A DNA stretch of 64,000 nucleotides from Puniceicoccaceae bacterium K14 (GTDB lineage: Bacteria; Verrucomicrobiota; Verrucomicrobiia; Opitutales; Opitutaceae): positions 1-64,000 of the forward strand of contig JAKYXN010000026.1 in assembly GCA_022538095.1 (NCBI GenBank). Reading direction: 5' to 3'. Position 1 is the first letter of the stretch; the number at the start of each line of letters is the position of its first letter. The translations under genes and the position numbers were made by a program. This document shows positions 42,495 to 54,664 of the stretch, one piece after another. The notes below the pieces were generated by a model. That model was not told where the DNA came from. It ran no database searches and was given only the letters and a program-made list of their open reading frames with translations.

Positions 42495-45068
42495 ATGAAA
42501 AATCCACTACAACTTATACATCGCTTATTACGAGCTAGCGTTGTGTTGGCTCTCTTGGCGACGTGTAGCTTTACATACGCTCAAAGCGACACTGAAACAA
42601 AAATTAAGCTCATGTCAGAAGCTCTTCAAGCGAGAGACGATGGTGATTTGGAAACATCACGCACAAGGCTTGAAGAACTTCTCAAGATCGTGCCTAATGA
42701 TGCTTCGGTGAAGCGGATTTTGCAGGATGTGGAGACGATGATTGCAGAGAAGAAGCGTCGTCCTAATTCAGATCCAGTTTCCCAAGATACACCGGAAAGA
42801 AGAGCAGCCTTGTTAAATGAGGCAAAATATATGGCCGAGCTCGAAGCAGAGCGTATTGATAAAAGCATGTCCGATGCGCGTGAAATTCGGGATGTAGCGT
42901 TGAGACAAGCAAAGCGAGGCGATTACGATACGGCGTTAATCAATATTGAAAAGGCGTTGAATACGGTAGAATTGAACCCGCTAACGAAAACGTTGGTAGA
43001 CGAACTAAAGCGGGATCAACGAGAAATAATGCGCGATAAATCGCAATACGGTGCGAGTTCAACGTCAACCGCTAGTAGTGGCAAAAAGGGGCGAGGTAAA
43101 AATGCGAAACTCCCAATTGATCAAATTAGCCCAGATTACGTAAGTTTACAGGAGGAGATCTCTGCTCTAGAGCTTCGTGCTCGATCTCAGTTTTTTGCAG
43201 GAGATATCGATGGCGCTGAAGCGACTTTCAAGCAAATCGAAGTTTTGGATCCAAATAATGATAAAGCAAAGAGCTTCCTTATTCGGATTTCCCGTGAGCG
43301 TGAATCGATGGCTTTCCTAAACAAGCTTAAGACGCGTGAGCAACTTTTAGAAGAAGTATCCAGCGCTTGGCAACGCCCTGGTATTTATGAAGAGCGTCCC
43401 GATTTGAGTCCGACTGTGATGGGACCGGCGCCTTTGCAGCAGAAGCTGAATAATATAATAATCCCAACGGTTAATTTTACTAATGTGGACCTTACTCGTG
43501 TTGTGAATACATTGAGTGCAATTTCGGAGGAATTTGATAATACGGATGTAGGAACTCGCGGAGTGAATCTCGTGTTAATAGACCCAGACCGTACGAATCC
43601 CTTGGTTAATATCACACTTAGAAATCTATCAATTAAGCGTATCTTGGACTTTATCGTTGATTCTGTTGGCTTTCAATATGAAGTACAGCAGGACGCCGTC
43701 GTTCTACGCCCGGGTGGAGAGCGTAGAAATCTGAATACAGAAGTATTCCCTGTATCTCGATCAACTGTGATTCGCATGACAGGTCTTAGTGGCAGTGGTC
43801 AATCCGACTATGAGAACGATCCGTTTGCGAATGGGGCGACATCGCCCGCTAGGGGCTTTGCAGATGACGCGAATACGATTCGTACTTTCTTGCAACAAGC
43901 GGGTGTCGATTTCACGGGTGTTGAAGGCAGTACAATGGCTTACGATGGATCCGCGATGATAGTGACTCAGTCGTCTAGAAACCTAGAGCGTATCCGAAAT
44001 ATTCTGAATCGCTATACAGACGTAAAACAGGTGGAAATCGAAGCGAAGTTTTTGGAAGTGGAAGAAGGAGCTCTTGATGAGCTTGGCTTTGATTGGTTTG
44101 TTTCAGAAGATGGTGCCCTAGGGGGTGATGGAGTGGCAACTGGAGACGATGAAATTTACCAATCTTCGATGAGAACATTAGCTGATACTGCTCCGCAGGC
44201 CCTTTCAGGGGCTATTGTGATCACTAATGAAGATGGTGGTAAAATTGAGTCTCCACTTACTGCTCCTTCGTTGCCAGGTGGACTTCAGCTTGGAGTTGGA
44301 ACTAATCCATTCACTGAGGTTTTTGGCAGGATAGATGATGTTGCATTGAATGTAACCATTCGGGCCCTTTCGCAAAAATCAGGTTCTGATCTGCTGAGTG
44401 CCCCTAAAGTGACTGTGCTTTCGGGAAACCAAGCTGAAATTAGCGTAGGCCAAGAGTTTCGCTATCCGACAAGTTACAGTGACACAGAAAGCAATGTTGG
44501 CAGTTCGAGTGAGAATACGTCTGGAGCAGGTGTAACAATCACACCTGGTACGCCTGAAGATTTCGAAACGCGAAACGTCGGTGTTGAGTTGTCGGTTACG
44601 CCGATTGTCGAAGAAGATGATTACAGTATCACTTTGGAGATGAACCCGAAGGTAACCGAATTTGAAGGATTTGTTGAATACGGAGGAGCGAGCGTTGCGA
44701 TAGCAGGAGGTCGAACGGTAACAGCTCCGTCTGGTTTCTATCAGCCAATTTTCTCTGTACGGGAAGTCTCCACAAAGGTAACGATTTGGGATGGCGCGAC
44801 TGTTGTCATGGGTGGCTTGACTCGAGAAGAAGTCGTGACCGTTTCTGATAAGGTACCATTTCTTGGCGACATTCCTTTGTTTGGCCGTTTCTTCCGTTCG
44901 GAAGGAGAAAGCTCGGCGAAGCGCAATTTGCTAATTTTTGTTACAGCAAACCTCGTCAGTCCTGGTGGTTCGCCGAAGCGCCAAACTTTAAGAGGAGTGA
45001 GCCCTGGTTCAATGTTCCAAAATCCAACGATCGTGACTCCAGGTGGCAGTGAGTCGCGTAGCCAGTAG
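42495..45068 (+). CDS. Amuc_1098-family secretin, outer-membrane pore
   Basis: 857 residues. Signal peptide (LLRASVVLALLATCSFTYAQ), then TPR-like helical repeats (residues 30-280; ALQARDDGDLETSRTRLEEL, ALRQAKRGDYDTALINIEKA), STN-like and secretin N domains (IPTVNFTNVDLTRVVNTLSA, RILDFIVDSVGFQYEVQQDA, MIVTQSSRNLERIRNILNRY), and the secretin core (VEIEAKFLEVEEGALDELGF, ISVGQEFRYPTSYSD, VVMGGLTREEVVTVSDKVPF, LGDIPLFGRFFR). It forms the outer-membrane ring for the pilus-like machine. The N-terminal TPR may replace a separate pilotin. Last gene of the locus. Confidence 0.93.
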   Translation: MKNPLQLIHRLLRASVVLALLATCSFTYAQSDTETKIKLMSEALQARDDGDLETSRTRLEELLKIVPNDASVKRILQDVETMIAEKKRRPNSDPVSQDTPERRAALLNEAKYMAELEAERIDKSMSDAREIRDVALRQAKRGDYDTALINIEKALNTVELNPLTKTLVDELKRDQREIMRDKSQYGASSTSTASSGKKGRGKNAKLPIDQISPDYVSLQEEISALELRARSQFFAGDIDGAEATFKQIEVLDPNNDKAKSFLIRISRERESMAFLNKLKTREQLLEEVSSAWQRPGIYEERPDLSPTVMGPAPLQQKLNNIIIPTVNFTNVDLTRVVNTLSAISEEFDNTDVGTRGVNLVLIDPDRTNPLVNITLRNLSIKRILDFIVDSVGFQYEVQQDAVVLRPGGERRNLNTEVFPVSRSTVIRMTGLSGSGQSDYENDPFANGATSPARGFADDANTIRTFLQQAGVDFTGVEGSTMAYDGSAMIVTQSSRNLERIRNILNRYTDVKQVEIEAKFLEVEEGALDELGFDWFVSEDGALGGDGVATGDDEIYQSSMRTLADTAPQALSGAIVITNEDGGKIESPLTAPSLPGGLQLGVGTNPFTEVFGRIDDVALNVTIRALSQKSGSDLLSAPKVTVLSGNQAEISVGQEFRYPTSYSDTESNVGSSSENTSGAGVTITPGTPEDFETRNVGVELSVTPIVEEDDYSITLEMNPKVTEFEGFVEYGGASVAIAGGRTVTAPSGFYQPIFSVREVSTKVTIWDGATVVMGGLTREEVVTVSDKVPFLGDIPLFGRFFRSEGESSAKRNLLIFVTANLVSPGGSPKRQTLRGVSPGSMFQNPTIVTPGGSESRSQ

Positions 45069-47218: not shown

Positions 47219-47935
47219 TTAGTAAATGACTGGCTCCATTTTCTTTGATAACGTTTTGTCGTAATCGTAGAATTCTTCGAGTGAAAGGGCTTTTTCCGAG
47301 AGACGTGTCCACTCCGCTTTTGAAGCGTGTTCGTAGATGATTTCGCCTTCGTAGTTTTGGAGGATAAGGATGTATCCATCGACAGAATACCCGTAGGGAT
47401 CATTATCGGAATTGTTGTGTATCTGAAATGGATCGCCTTCCCATTTTTCCGATGATTTTCGAGGAAGGTCTAGAGTAAATTCTTGGCGATTGAGGACTTG
47501 GCGAAAAGAAGGAGTGTCTAAGCGTTTGCCAATGAATATTAAGGTTCCTTTTACCTCCTGATAGCTCTGTTGTATGTCTTGATTCAGAATTTGAACGCTT
47601 GGATTAAAGAGGGTGATCGATTCACTTTCTTCGATCTCTTTATTGTAGGATACGGACACACGAAGTTTTTCTCCATTTGTGATGAGTGGGCCCAGTCGAG
47701 AACGTTTCTCCTGCCAGGTACGAATGATTTCTTGGCTTTCATTCGAAAATCGATCGATTGGGACGGTGAAATGTTTTCCGTCTTCGCGGATTAAGTAAAG
47801 GTTTTCGCCTTTTAAGTAGACGAGCTCTGCATGGATGGTTTTCCCTTCAGTGTCCGTTAGTTCGTGTTGAATAGCAAACGAGATGGTTTGGGACTGAATA
47901 GCGAGTAGTAAGAATAGCAAAAATTTGGATCTCAT
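47219..47935 (-). CDS. Secreted SHD1-like domain protein, paralogue 1
   Basis: 238 residues. Signal peptide (FLLFLLLAIQSQTISFAIQH). An SHD1-like segment follows: ELTDTEGKTIHAELVYLKGE, NLYLIREDGKHFTVPIDRFS, then SQEIIRTWQEKR. The rest has STVLN-like beta strands and a conserved end YGYSVDGYILILQNYEGEII, WTRLSEKALSLEEFYDYDKT. The same layout occurs in the 237-residue protein at 53951-54664. The cellular role is unknown. The gene is divergent in orientation from the exonuclease/tRNA strand and lies 16 bp downstream of the rhombosortase gene. Confidence 0.7.
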   Translation of the reverse strand: MRSKFLLFLLLAIQSQTISFAIQHELTDTEGKTIHAELVYLKGENLYLIREDGKHFTVPIDRFSNESQEIIRTWQEKRSRLGPLITNGEKLRVSVSYNKEIEESESITLFNPSVQILNQDIQQSYQEVKGTLIFIGKRLDTPSFRQVLNRQEFTLDLPRKSSEKWEGDPFQIHNNSDNDPYGYSVDGYILILQNYEGEIIYEHASKAEWTRLSEKALSLEEFYDYDKTLSKKMEPVIY

Positions 47936-47950: not shown

Positions 47951-48556
47951 CTAGACGAAAGGTTGGAATCGTTTATTCAGAAAAAGTGTCGGGGTTTTTC
48001 TAAATTGGATTAGTATGGCACTCGATAGACCTGCAATATGCGTTATTGTTGCGACGTTGATGCCTTGCCCTAAGCTGCTCGAAAAAATGGGATCAGGGTG
48101 ACGGAGCTCAATTATTGTTTTTAAGATCATTCCTATAAAAGCAATTAGAGAAAGGGTTCCGCTCGCGATATTTCTGCTTCGGAATGAATGGCTTGCCCAA
48201 AGTAAAAGTCCGTGAGCGAAAAAGGCGGTGTCAATGGCAGACAGACCACGGTAGTGGATATACTCAGAAAAGTAGGAGAGAGCTATATGCGATAGAGCGA
48301 TAGTTGTTAGGGTGGAAAGAATGAGTGTTTTTCGAGATCGTTGCTCGAGAATTAATCCTAGAATTATGAATACGATTAGATCCCATGCGAAATGAGATGG
48401 GGTCCAGTGTGATAGGTGGCCGGTGACGATTCGCCAGATTTCACCTTCTGCTATTGCTGTTCGATCCCACTGGAAAAGGTGTTGGAACGCTGGAAATATT
48501 TGGATCAACGTTGATAGGCCTGCGAGTCCGAGAGTGAAGTAAGGCAGTTTTTTCAT
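47951..48556 (-). CDS. rrtA: Rhombosortase
   Basis: 201 residues, a rhomboid-type intramembrane serine protease with about six helices. WRIVTGHLSHWTPSHFAWDL is the L1/TM2 signature, the nucleophile is Ser106 in YRGLSAID, and the base is His173 in ITHIAGL. The family cleaves GlyGly-CTERM proteins for export or anchoring. The upstream gene on the same strand encodes a VIT/VWA protein bearing a GlyGly-CTERM-like segment, its likely substrate. There are 107 bp between them and 15 bp to the SHD1-like gene downstream. The CTERM partner needs a tripartite signal, seen at residues 643-669 of that protein. Confidence 0.85.
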   Translation of the reverse strand: MKKLPYFTLGLAGLSTLIQIFPAFQHLFQWDRTAIAEGEIWRIVTGHLSHWTPSHFAWDLIVFIILGLILEQRSRKTLILSTLTTIALSHIALSYFSEYIHYRGLSAIDTAFFAHGLLLWASHSFRSRNIASGTLSLIAFIGMILKTIIELRHPDPIFSSSLGQGINVATITHIAGLSSAILIQFRKTPTLFLNKRFQPFV

Positions 48557-48663: not shown

Positions 48664-51024
48664 CTATCGTTTTACTGTGCCTTCGTATTTGTTTTCTTGG
48701 GACTCTGCCTGGTCTCCCCATACGAATTCGAATAAAGAGAATGACCCAAATAAGTTGAAGCCGAAGTGTCCATTATTCTTATTAGCGGTCTCATTCTGCT
48801 TTACTGTGTGTTTATCTGGCAAAGGCTGTAGAGGGGCTTGTGATCGGCCAGTTTGTTCGTTTTGAGGTTCTTTTGGACCTGGTTTTCGGTAGAGATTCGC
48901 TTCTGATTCGCTCACTTCCCAGAAATTTGAAATGGAATCATGGACACTGGCGTGAGATGAGCTTTGATGCGATAGTGCCAATGCGACCGTGCAGAGCCCA
49001 ATTTTCGATAGTATCCATTTTTTTCGGTTAACTGACAAATAGATGGCTACGGATGAAGCAATTAGAAGGGCGAGCCAAGGTTCGATTGCTCCTCCTCCGC
49101 TATGGCTAGGTGTGTTGTTGGTGTACATGGGGCGTTGTGAATCAACTCGCTGAGCTCCTGAATTTTGGACTCTTTGAGTTTGGGCCATCCGCTCTGTGTT
49201 CAGGCGTTGTTGGTTTTTTCGCTCGATGCCATGACGCATAAACCCTTCATCGTCTAAGGCTATCATAGATGTACCCTCGGTTACGATTTGATAGGCGATA
49301 CCAATATCTGCGATTGCCTGTTCCGATTCGGAGACCTCTACGAGTCCTGCCATTTTAGCGACCTGGATTTTCTGAACTTGGTCTAATGCCCACATACGTT
49401 CGATTTCTGGATAGTCTGCCGCGGCACTGGGAAATTCGACCTGAGTGGTGTAGGTTTTTTCGTGTCCGCTTATTTTGGCTTTTAGTTCGATATTTGCCTG
49501 GCCCGCCTCGTTATATTTTCCGAAGAAAATCAGTTGTTCTCCACGGTGAATTTTTCCGATCCTAAAGTCGGATACATCGAAGGTGTCGACTCCTTTAATC
49601 TTTAATGAGGCTTCGTGCATACTTTGGTAAGCTACCTTGTTTTTTGCCAAAAGAATTTCGCCGATAATGTCATTGCTATTGGATACAGATTTGTAGTATC
49701 CACCACTGGCTTCGCACATCAAACGCATGAGTGGCCAATTACTGCTATTGCCAAGGAGAAAGCCAAAGAAGCGTACGTCTTTTGCGTGAAGTAGTTTGTA
49801 GAATTCTTTGTCGTTCACGATGCCTTGATTGGCGACACCATCGGTAACGAGAATGAGGCTGGATACTCGGTCGCTATCAAGGTTTCGAATTCCCGCTGAG
49901 ATAGCATTGTAGAGATTGGTACCATTGTTGGCTTGAAGTTGATGAATTTTTTCGAGCGATCTATGGATGTTTTCGGGGGTCGCGTTTAGCCACCCCTTGT
50001 GGATGTCCCAAGCTCGGTTGTTGAAGGGAATGATCCGATAGCGATCCTCTGGGCGAAGTTTTTCGATCGCTTTAGATACGCCGTTTGCGAGTGTGTGAAG
50101 TTTTCCATTCATGCTACCAGAGACGTCGACTACGAAAACGTAATCGGATCCATTCTTGAGCGGTTCGAGGTCGTCACCCGGCGTCATTAAAAGCATGAAT
50201 GTGCCAGGCTTTTCTTCTATGGGGCGGTAAGTTATCATTTCTAAGCGGCCTGGTAGATTTTCTTGTAGTTTATAGTAAAATACGAAGTCTTGGTTTAGAT
50301 TTTGTCCGCCTGATTTCGTGTAACTGTAGCGAACGTTTTTTTCATTAATGTGTTGAATATTTCCATTGAAGTGAGGCGTACGTACATGAGTGACTGGCCA
50401 TACGCTGTTGAGTGTGACGTCTAGCGAGAATTGAGATTCAACAAGCTCGTTTGTCGACCAGAATGCCGATGCTTGTTCGTCGGTGCCACCTTCTTCTATA
50501 CGGTAAGCATAACGACCGATGCCTGTATCCAGTTTGAGTGCTTCGTAGTAAGAATAGAACATTCGAACGGTGCCGTTGGCTGGGACGCGAGACACATTGA
50601 ACTCAAAATTTTGGTAGGAGTTTTGGGTAGCTTTTCCCGCGTCGTTGCCTTGTTTTTTTTCTTCTTCGTAGATGCGATCGGCGTCTTCTTTGCGGATGAC
50701 TTCGCCATGAATCGTTTTTTCGTCCAATTCGATGCGTAGCTCAGATAAGGCGGCTTGTTCTGGTATTGGTGTTTGGTAGATCGCTTCTAGATCGACTGTA
50801 TTCGGATTACGAAATACTTGTTCGACCTCCGTATGGGCAAAGCCATTATTTATGACGACTCGTACATGGTGTTCGTCTAGTTTGAGCGGAATATCGGGCG
50901 ACCCAACAGGAGTAAGAATACCGGATGCATAGGACGATGCCGCTGCTATTGAGCAAAGAGCGATCGTGTTAAAAGCGTTTTTTGAAACGCGAAATAATGA
51001 AGATAATAGATTTTTATTTTCCAT
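48664..51024 (-). CDS. VIT and VWA domain protein with internal GlyGly-CTERM-like segment
   Basis: 786 residues. Signal peptide (AFNTIALCSIAAASSYASGI), VIT domain (about 40-170; VRVVINNGFAHTEVEQVFRN, GEVIRKEDADRIYEEEKKQG), VWA domain with MIDAS (VFVVDVSGSMNGK, NNGTNLYNAISAGI, SLILVTDGVANQG; about 300-480), and a helical linker. At 643-669 lies GGG, a hydrophobic helix (WLALLIASSVAIYL) and NRKK, the form of a GlyGly-CTERM signal. Instead of ending there, it continues 116 residues: a second hydrophobic helix (IGLCTVALALSHQSSSHA) and a polar tail ending EGTVKR. Rhombosortase lies downstream. An A7 run encodes RKK. Inter-alpha-trypsin-inhibitor-like surface protein by family. Confidence 0.88.
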   Translation of the reverse strand: MENKNLLSSLFRVSKNAFNTIALCSIAAASSYASGILTPVGSPDIPLKLDEHHVRVVINNGFAHTEVEQVFRNPNTVDLEAIYQTPIPEQAALSELRIELDEKTIHGEVIRKEDADRIYEEEKKQGNDAGKATQNSYQNFEFNVSRVPANGTVRMFYSYYEALKLDTGIGRYAYRIEEGGTDEQASAFWSTNELVESQFSLDVTLNSVWPVTHVRTPHFNGNIQHINEKNVRYSYTKSGGQNLNQDFVFYYKLQENLPGRLEMITYRPIEEKPGTFMLLMTPGDDLEPLKNGSDYVFVVDVSGSMNGKLHTLANGVSKAIEKLRPEDRYRIIPFNNRAWDIHKGWLNATPENIHRSLEKIHQLQANNGTNLYNAISAGIRNLDSDRVSSLILVTDGVANQGIVNDKEFYKLLHAKDVRFFGFLLGNSSNWPLMRLMCEASGGYYKSVSNSNDIIGEILLAKNKVAYQSMHEASLKIKGVDTFDVSDFRIGKIHRGEQLIFFGKYNEAGQANIELKAKISGHEKTYTTQVEFPSAAADYPEIERMWALDQVQKIQVAKMAGLVEVSESEQAIADIGIAYQIVTEGTSMIALDDEGFMRHGIERKNQQRLNTERMAQTQRVQNSGAQRVDSQRPMYTNNTPSHSGGGAIEPWLALLIASSVAIYLSVNRKKWILSKIGLCTVALALSHQSSSHASVHDSISNFWEVSESEANLYRKPGPKEPQNEQTGRSQAPLQPLPDKHTVKQNETANKNNGHFGFNLFGSFSLFEFVWGDQAESQENKYEGTVKR

Positions 51025-51238: not shown

Positions 51239-51928
51239 TTACTCGACGAATTCTTCTTCTGGATTACTTTCTGGTAGATCGTTTCCATCCCAAGGTTTTT
51301 CGACGATTTTGTATCCGTTAGGTGTTTTGCGGTAGATAGCACCGTCAGATTCGAAATATTCGATTTCGTTGTGCCAGATCGTAGTGAAACCGCTTGGAAG
51401 ACTGTTTATAGTGACGCCTATTGGCGTTTCAACCCACACGAGTCCTTCCGGGCTTTCTCTAAAAAACTGTCCATCCTTAAAGAGGAGTTTACGCTCACCG
51501 ACCCAAACGGTTTCGTAGGCCTCTTCTGCGTCTTCTATGGTTTCTTTTTCAGCCACGGCCGGCGTTTCTACGACTACATAGCCATTGGAGATTTTTCGAT
51601 AATACACGTCGTCATAACGGTAGTACACGGCTCCGCTGAGAACTAATCTTGAATAACCACGTGGCAGAGATCGGATTCTAGCTCCTCGCGGAGCTCTGAC
51701 GACAGAGTAGCCTTGCTTGCCTTTACTATAGTACTTTCCTCCGTGGTGGTAATAGCGATTTTTGCCCACGTTTATTCGGACGGCAGTTTTGGGCAGACGG
51801 AGGACGGTTCCGATGCTAACATCTATGTCTGATCTAGGCCTGGCTTCGGCGCTGGGTAGCATGGAGGGTGAAAACGTGGCGATTGCGATGGCTGAGGCGG
51901 CGATGATTGAGTATTTTTTTATATTCAT
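51239..51928 (-). CDS. Secreted DUF6515-like repeat protein
   Basis: 229 residues. Signal peptide (YSIIAASAIAIATFSPSMLP, then SAEA). Three repeats of the 'YYYxxGxYYxxxxxGYxVVxxPxGAxIxxLPxGY' type: YYHHGGKYYSKGKQGYSVVR then APRGARIRSLPRGY; YYRYDDVYYRKISNGYVVVE; LFKDGQFFRESPEGLVWVE then TPIGVTINSLPSGF; and a last partial one (YFESDGAIYRKTPNGYKIVE). The acidic C-terminus ends NPEEEFVE. Proteins of this kind are exported and of unknown function. It reads toward the VIT/VWA gene but is separated by a terminator and the inverted repeat at 51141. Confidence 0.75.
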   Translation of the reverse strand: MNIKKYSIIAASAIAIATFSPSMLPSAEARPRSDIDVSIGTVLRLPKTAVRINVGKNRYYHHGGKYYSKGKQGYSVVRAPRGARIRSLPRGYSRLVLSGAVYYRYDDVYYRKISNGYVVVETPAVAEKETIEDAEEAYETVWVGERKLLFKDGQFFRESPEGLVWVETPIGVTINSLPSGFTTIWHNEIEYFESDGAIYRKTPNGYKIVEKPWDGNDLPESNPEEEFVE

Positions 51929-53950: not shown

Positions 53951-54664
53951 TCATTGCAGATCAGACAGGCTGCGATCGTAGTCTGCCAGTTCGATTAGGT
54001 TCATGTATTTATCAATCGGATCTATCCAAAGCGGACTGCTAGCGTAGGCGTGGATTGTTTTCCCGTCACTGTTTTGGATCGTAAGAATATAGCCGAAGAG
54101 AGTGAATCCCAAATCCCGATTTGTGGCATTCCTAGGGATCGTAAACGAATCGCCTCCGTAGATGGTTGTTTGTTTACTTGGGAGGCTTATTGAAAATTTC
54201 TGTTTATTCAGAACTCGCAGTAACTTTTTGGAGCCATTGCTGATTCCGATAATTGTGAGATAGCCTTTTGCCTCTTGGAGGCTGTGTTTCGGGTCTGGAT
54301 TTTGTATCTTTATTGTTGGTACGTAAATTGGGGGAGATTGGCTGTCGCCCGCATTGCTTGCGTTTGCAGGGGAAAAATCTACGGTAGACAGGAGTGGGAG
54401 TGTTTTATTCGTTAGACGTATTTCGATCTCCTTTTGTTTAGCCCACAGTTCGACTAATAGTTTTGATTCGGTAGCTAGGCGATCAAGCTCGATATCAAAT
54501 TTACTCCCGTCTTCTTGTTGAATAGCGACCATTGTTCGGCTAGCTCCAATAATTTCCACGTTTATAATACGTCCATTAACGTCTTTCAGTGTGACGCTGT
54601 CGGCGTGAGCAAGCTGCAACATCAGGAGAACGCTAATCAGGAGAATACAAGGGTTGAAGGGCAT
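53951..54664 (-). CDS. Secreted SHD1-like domain protein, paralogue 2
   Basis: 237 residues. Signal peptide (CILLISVLLMLQLAHADSVT). SHD1-like region: TLKDVNGRIINVEIIGASRT, MVAIQQEDGSKFDIELDRLA, LLVELWAKQKE. The C-terminal half matches the protein at 47219-47935: KHSLQEAKGYLTIIGISNGS, RVLNKQKFSISLPSKQTTIY, LGFTLFGYILTIQNSDGKTI, YMNLIELADYDRSLSD. Thus two diverged copies lie 6.5 kb apart. Function unknown. The gene starts 61 bp after the alkA stop. Confidence 0.7.
   Translation of the reverse strand: MPFNPCILLISVLLMLQLAHADSVTLKDVNGRIINVEIIGASRTMVAIQQEDGSKFDIELDRLATESKLLVELWAKQKEIEIRLTNKTLPLLSTVDFSPANASNAGDSQSPPIYVPTIKIQNPDPKHSLQEAKGYLTIIGISNGSKKLLRVLNKQKFSISLPSKQTTIYGGDSFTIPRNATNRDLGFTLFGYILTIQNSDGKTIHAYASSPLWIDPIDKYMNLIELADYDRSLSDLQ

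Follow-up and report, generated by a model that had tools for sequence, protein, structure and literature searches.

We analyzed a 64,000-nucleotide stretch of the Puniceicoccaceae bacterium K14 genome (assembly GCA_022538095.1, contig JAKYXN010000026.1, positions 1 to 64,000; hereafter the window, and its genome G000) and found that one open reading frame (ORF) on the minus strand joins a VIT/VWA protein carrying a GlyGly-CTERM-like sorting signal to a small protein that other Opitutales encode as a separate gene. The fusion itself is firmly established. Its product is probably an exported polyprotein that would be cut by rhombosortase at the glycines of the signal and by signal peptidase I near the A692-S693 bond. 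With little more than even confidence we extend this to a scheme in which the two enzymes produce, from one chain, a VIT/VWA protein anchored at the surface and a small exported partner, rhombosortase acts on an internal signal, and some dedicated rhombosortase systems include a third component.

The original prediction, made from the sequence alone, placed a GGG motif, a hydrophobic helix and the basic run NRKK at residues 643-669, and reading the ORF confirmed that this signal lies inside the protein, followed by a second helix and a long tail. The signal consists of SGGGAIEP, the first hydrophobic helix (TM1) and NRKK (residues 666-669), as in the definition of GlyGly-CTERM, which combines a glycine motif without cysteine, a hydrophobic stretch and a basic residue; 117 residues lie beyond NRKK, and the second helix region, IGLCTVALALSHQSSSHA, spans residues 675-692. 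A rhombosortase, also part of that definition, is encoded in the same genome, and the signal is not C-terminal, hence the label GlyGly-CTERM-like, internal. We chose this name because of the architecture and the homology to orthologues that end at the signal; the motif lacks the invariant Cys of MYXO-CTERM. G643 and G645 are invariant across 22 aligned orthologues, and all seven fusions described below retain both the glycine run and the basic residues. The GlyGly-CTERM model TIGR03501 lists two of the 22 orthologues at E ≤ 10 (best E 0.098) and nothing in the window's own genome, in a search so unspecific that matches arise in 11 of 14 control genomes, and the MprA_tail model TIGR03867 gives the window protein 16.1 bits, under its cut-off of 19.7.

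Domain searches bore out both the VIT and the VWA assignment, and the closest solved structures to a profile of the 22 orthologues were the inter-alpha-trypsin inhibitor heavy chains and PARP4, matched through this part of the protein. The expected rhombosortase gene was indeed found just downstream, 107 nt away on the minus strand, its product scoring 92.9-93.2 bits against TIGR03902 (curated cut-off 84). Rhombosortases above this cut-off are present in 7/7 fused genomes.

To the window's genome we could add six fused genomes (G082, G108, G129, G146, G163 and G177), all from the genus g19, which is Pelagicoccus according to named records (four of its eight genomes, plus DG1235). These six of the eight genomes carry the same in-frame tail in frames of 801-850 aa; no stop interrupts the frame in any of the six species, and the records bearing the names DG1235 and P. 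mobilis likewise contain an unbroken ORF. The remaining two differ: in G018 the VIT/VWA gene is present and the tail missing, and G191 yields neither a VIT/VWA match at E ≤ 1e-60 nor a rhombosortase that reaches the cut-off (best 47.9 bits).

Unfused orthologues are more widespread. A first search matched 14 of 57 genomes at E ≤ 1e-20, counting the window's own and some distant paralogues, and nine orthologues end soon after the glycine-helix-basic signal (G018, G044, G004, G028, G033, G019, G002, G005 and G009, the last with its N-terminal part in another frame). In an order-wide sample, with at most two candidates scored per genome, orthologues were present at E ≤ 1e-100 in 32 of 372 genomes including the window's: six fused (G000, G082, G108, G129, G146, G163), five with a separate small gene (G243, G260, G271, G273, G303), and 21 in which a profile search for the tail, run on an equally large sample of the order, found no match (at most 11 candidates scored per genome). 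Every one of the 20 C-termini inspected among these 21 (all but G368) ends at the signal. Six of the 20 are among the nine orthologues named above, and in each of the other 14 rhombosortase follows on the same strand at no more than 801 nt.

Searches with the tail traced the same distribution. Its sequence gave ten matches in 200 family genomes: the window, the six Pelagicoccus fusions, a small separate ORF (G186) and two unsupported hits, G077 (5.6e-4) and G143 (0.00695), which we dropped because the stretches fetched held no VIT/VWA or rhombosortase gene; neither was among the family profile matches. The tail profile found ten carriers in 252 family genomes (seven fused and three separate) and 12 in the 372 genomes of the order sample (six and six). 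In 387 genomes of a phylum sample it matched the window alone; this sample evidently held no other carriers and is informative only for distant lineages.

The check proposed in the original prediction, whether the tail also occurs as a protein of its own in other Opitutales, came out positively: nine genomes (G303, G230, G273, G260, G243, G271, G186, G861 and G862) each have a stand-alone small gene for it, complete with signal peptide. In these relatives the VIT/VWA protein ending in the signal, the small protein and the rhombosortase are three neighbouring genes. The 3' end of the small gene overlaps the rhombosortase ORF, taken from its first start codon, in 9/9 cases, and its start lies at most 28 nt after the VIT/VWA gene in seven of the nine, with 662 nt between them in G273. 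G230 has kept the small gene and the rhombosortase and has no VIT/VWA match at E ≤ 1e-10; its truncated neighbour suggests a recent deletion, and it therefore carries little information on the partner of the small protein. The small protein directly precedes the rhombosortase gene in 15 of the 16 genomes read. In three of the eight measurable cases the VIT/VWA and small genes share a reading frame across a gap of 3-18 nt, so that loss of a stop codon could make the fusion. In G273 the two genes are separated by an additional ORF (L085:6573-7283, at most 236 aa), and a 75-aa ORF with the same ending is left in G230 (L084:6028-6255).

We built a tree of 22 VIT/VWA proteins (seven fused, six with a separate small gene, nine with neither), leaving out G025 (cut by a contig end and also excluded from the alignments), G861, G862, the extra stretch L122 of G177 and the 14 further orthologues. 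The fused proteins and that of G018 split from the other 14 sequences with an ultrafast bootstrap of 100, and G018 falls within them, in a clade with four fused species (ultrafast bootstrap 100). Because it is nested among the fused proteins, G018 most likely lost its tail.

The separate genes also reveal what the second helix represents. The original prediction rightly noted it as hydrophobic and missed that, judging from these homologues, it is a former signal peptide, since the tail exists in nine genomes as a small gene with a signal peptide of its own. By eye, the separate small proteins start with signal peptides ending A/Q, A/T, A/S or A/E (the slash marks the cut; G186 entered our alignment cut one residue further on), and in 7/7 fusions TM1 is followed by a loop of net charge +3 to +5, a hydrophobic stretch (TM2) and a placeable Ala-ending site, matching the signal peptidase I pattern of Ala at -1 and a small or aliphatic residue at -3. 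This site lies 7 residues before a WTDR or WTER motif in the four fusions that keep it, and 7-12 residues before it in the separate proteins. We then compared nonsynonymous (pN) and synonymous (pS) differences in the six pairs formed by four Pelagicoccus genomes (G146, G129, G108 and G177), a set to which the window does not belong. pN was 0.41-0.63 for the loop and TM2, 0.22-0.38 for the glycines and TM1, 0.26-0.36 for the mature tail and 0.10-0.13 for VWA; pS, at 0.63-0.84 in the loop and TM2, the tail and VWA, is near saturation and we claim no rate ratio. The loop and TM2 thus appear nearly free in sequence while keeping their character, a pattern like that of signal peptides, and the mature tail appears constrained.

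These results outline how the polyprotein could mature. The chain would enter Sec through its N-terminal signal peptide, TM1 would stop transfer and leave NRKK in the cytoplasm, and the former signal peptide of the small protein would act as an internal export signal that restarts export. Cleavage by rhombosortase at the glycines would then make the VIT/VWA protein available for lipid attachment and further sorting, and a cut by signal peptidase I near A692 would release a small protein of 94 residues; a TM1-loop-TM2 hairpin would remain, and the two products would arise in a one-to-one ratio. Parts of this scheme have precedents in the accessible text of published work: rhombosortase cuts VesB, exposing its second glycine, and VesB carries a glycerophosphoethanolamine modification (PMC6219818); the signal peptidase SpsB cuts the LtaS domain away from its transmembrane domains (PMC11898559); and sorting tags are stated to function in mid-protein (PMC11980579). 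A split into a surface VIT/VWA protein and a membrane-tethered or released C-terminal product had been predicted; the split stands as the best-supported mechanism, and, of the two fates offered for the tail, release appears likelier because the second helix would be a former signal peptide.

Several observations weigh against this polyprotein reading. The window protein is absent from the TIGR03501 matches at E ≤ 10, and the available text of Haft 2011 (PMC3237569) suggests that a C-terminal location helps specificity. The WTDR or WTER motif is missing in the window, G082 and G163, which makes their cleavage site less certain, and the chance of an Ala-ending site in shuffled segments is 0.25-0.64 each (product 0.0022, for related sequences and sites placed by eye). 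In G082 (L043, L089) the rhombosortase lies ~11 kb from the fused gene with other ORFs between, and G018 lacks the tail, with no match to it elsewhere in its genome. The predicted fold of the tail is not confident, with a mean predicted local distance difference test (pLDDT) score of 56 alone and mostly <50 in the full-length model. Lastly, Shine-Dalgarno-like runs lie a few bases before a TTG within TM1 in G146 (codon 663) and G129 (codon 656), where the small protein could thus be translated on its own.

Should rhombosortase cut at the glycines and signal peptidase not cut, the TM1-loop-TM2 hairpin would tether the small protein to the inner membrane. The internal position of the former signal peptide, the shortness of the window's second hydrophobic stretch and the weak test of the signal-peptidase sites are consistent with such a tether, which we nevertheless regard as unlikely: an Ala-ending site can be placed in 7/7 fusions despite the fast-changing sequence around it, and the signal peptide of the homologous protein looks ordinary in the nine genomes that encode it separately. 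An uncut membrane protein with two helices and two periplasmic parts, its GlyGly signal inactive since the fusion, is improbable. It would fit the weak match to signal models and the terminal position of the known signals, a location suggested to matter in the portions of the literature available, but not the upkeep of the glycine run and basic residues in every fusion, nor the occurrence of rhombosortase in all seven fused genomes and its absence above the cut-off from G191, which lacks the VIT/VWA gene; nor would it fit the statement, in the accessible part of PMC11980579, that sorting tags work in mid-protein.

Also improbable, in our view, is that translation of the small protein begins at an internal start codon and that the long chain is not its source, or not its only one. 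ATG, GTG or TTG codons occur within TM1 in five of the seven fusions, the product starting behind the runs of G146 and G129 would begin as a well-shaped signal peptide, and separate genes elsewhere begin within a few bases of the VIT/VWA stop. Against it, none of the seven fusions has an ATG between TM1 and the second hydrophobic stretch, the window's TTG (codon 663) has no evident ribosome-binding site, and Shine-Dalgarno-like runs would also arise from Gly-Gly coding. A sequencing or assembly error, which the original prediction had named as a possible refutation, can be dismissed, for although all 23 unfused orthologues that lack the small gene and were inspected terminate shortly beyond the basic residues, the same fusion is present in six other species, in three of them on contigs > 450 kb.

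The small protein has two conserved patches, around SIDxSIxxFW and GxFGxNLFNxIPxxDxVxG. Pfam and NCBIfam returned no family for the window tail, and 14 members gave only matches at E 0.067 or worse; the full-length model placed the tail with no confidence against the VIT/VWA part. The protein is accessory, because 21 of the 32 orthologue-bearing genomes do without it, and our guess is that it is a periplasmic helper of VIT/VWA sorting. As a family with no entry in the libraries searched, it represents an accessory third component of some Opitutales rhombosortase systems.

Table 1. Parts of the fused ORF and the adjacent rhombosortase, in window coordinates (a slash marks a cleavage site).
Feature	Positions	Strand	Basis or remark
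Fused ORF: VIT/VWA, internal GlyGly-CTERM-like signal, internal signal peptide, small protein	48664..51024	minus	786 aa plus stop
N-terminal signal peptide, residues 1-33 (YA/SG site by eye)	50926..51024	minus	homologous N-termini
VIT domain, residues 50-155	50560..50877	minus	PF08487, E 3.2e-27
VWA domain, about residues 296-452	49669..50139	minus	PF13768, PF00092
GGG, residues 643-645, predicted rhombosortase site of the GlyGly-CTERM-like signal	49090..49098	minus	
TM1, first hydrophobic helix PWLALLIASSVAIYLSV, residues 649-665	49030..49080	minus	helix 649-669 in predicted model
Positive loop NRKKWILSK, residues 666-674; putative former n-region of the small protein's signal peptide	49003..49029	minus	
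Second hydrophobic stretch IGLCTVALAL, residues 675-684; putative former signal-peptide h-region	48973..49002	minus	
Proposed signal peptidase I site SHA/S, between A692 and S693	48946..48951	minus	chosen by eye
Mature small protein, residues 693-786	48667..48948	minus	separate-gene product in nine Opitutales genomes
Rhombosortase, 201 aa, serine motif GLSAID (S106) and histidine in THIAGL	47951..48556	minus	

The region is flanked by a pair of secreted proteins that look alike (238 aa at 47219-47935 and 237 aa at 53951-54664, both on the minus strand) and, by eye, are probably paralogues. A DUF6515 gene adjoins the fused gene in the window (51239-51928) and the rhombosortase in DG1235 (L044:9211-9897); we rejected it as a constant neighbour, since beyond the window only one of the 25 loci tested (L044) has it. 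At 42495-45068 on the plus strand the window encodes a secretin resembling the Amuc_1098 type IV pilus proteins (405.6 bits, under the cut-off of 750), and a GspD-like secretin of type II secretion in the same genome reaches 332.7 bits against a cut-off of 351.35. The genome also encodes a second, distant VIT/VWA protein (L029:4575-6563, on contig C26) that ends in a PEP-CTERM-like signal, TPEPSTVALMITALLFAGIVAGKRYIKR, and may thus have two VIT/VWA proteins sorted by two systems.

The fusion bears on a loose end of the founding rhombosortase paper. According to the available text of Haft 2011 (PMC3237569), Verrucomicrobiae bacterium DG1235 was one of three genomes with a rhombosortase and no GlyGly-CTERM protein, the other two being HTCC5015 and Thioalkalivibrio sulfidophilus, and genes adjoining the rhomboid protease had been checked there for C-terminal regions built in that way. 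DG1235 is our genome G129: its fused ORF is intact in record DS990592.1, its rhombosortase (100.3 bits) is the genome's sole match to pass the cut-off, and the glycine run of its 812-residue protein begins at residue 636. The predicted target signal is therefore present but internal, which accounts for an enzyme without a recognised target, and substrates fused in this way escape searches that demand a sorting signal at the protein's extreme C-terminus.

A single chain split at an internal signal peptide is known from the FbcH cytochrome b/c1 precursor of Bradyrhizobium, in which the products are respiratory proteins and one protease acts. The literature searched on internal signal peptides and FbcH gave no direct precedent for our case, and that searched for rhombosortase together with Pelagicoccus or with 'VIT domain' gave nothing. 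We found in it no internal signal paired with rhombosortase, no unfused relatives, no internal signal peptide of this kind and no explanation for DG1235, and its accessible parts report no test of a GlyGly-CTERM that is extended at the C-terminus.

Among known systems, the dedicated pairs of Haft 2011 resemble ours in that a VIT/VWA protein with a glycine motif, a helix and basic residues adjoins its rhombosortase; in the available text (PMC3237569), Opitutus terrae stands in the table of adjacent pairs, and this family is treated in section 12 and the legend of Figure 3C. Unlike ours, those proteins end at the signal, whereas here a signal peptide and a further exported protein come after the internal signal. 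VesB of Vibrio cholerae, the model rhombosortase substrate, is cut at the second glycine, modified and directed to the surface (PMC6219818, PMC11389362, PMC13393428, as far as their accessible text goes), but has a terminal signal and a protease passenger and is one of six GlyGly-CTERM proteins in its species. The proteobacterial sortase targets of TIGR03788 share the VIT/VWA architecture; the window protein scores 209.2 bits, under the cut-off of 551.65, and is not a member, and those homologues use LPXTG and sortase, as described in the available part of PMC3237569. The nearest precedent for a sorting signal inside a protein is the internal MYXO-CTERM of MXAN_5598 in Myxococcus, for which the authors say that a two-gene fusion may be the origin; no unfused state is mentioned in the accessible part of that paper (PMC11980579). 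It differs from our fusion in its invariant Cys, its myxosortase and its downstream part, an outer-membrane barrel with OmpA domains (PMC11980579). We therefore regard the fused VIT/VWA protein as a variant of the GlyGly-CTERM/rhombosortase system, with MXAN_5598 as a parallel, and as a natural experiment on whether the signal must be C-terminal for rhombosortase to act.
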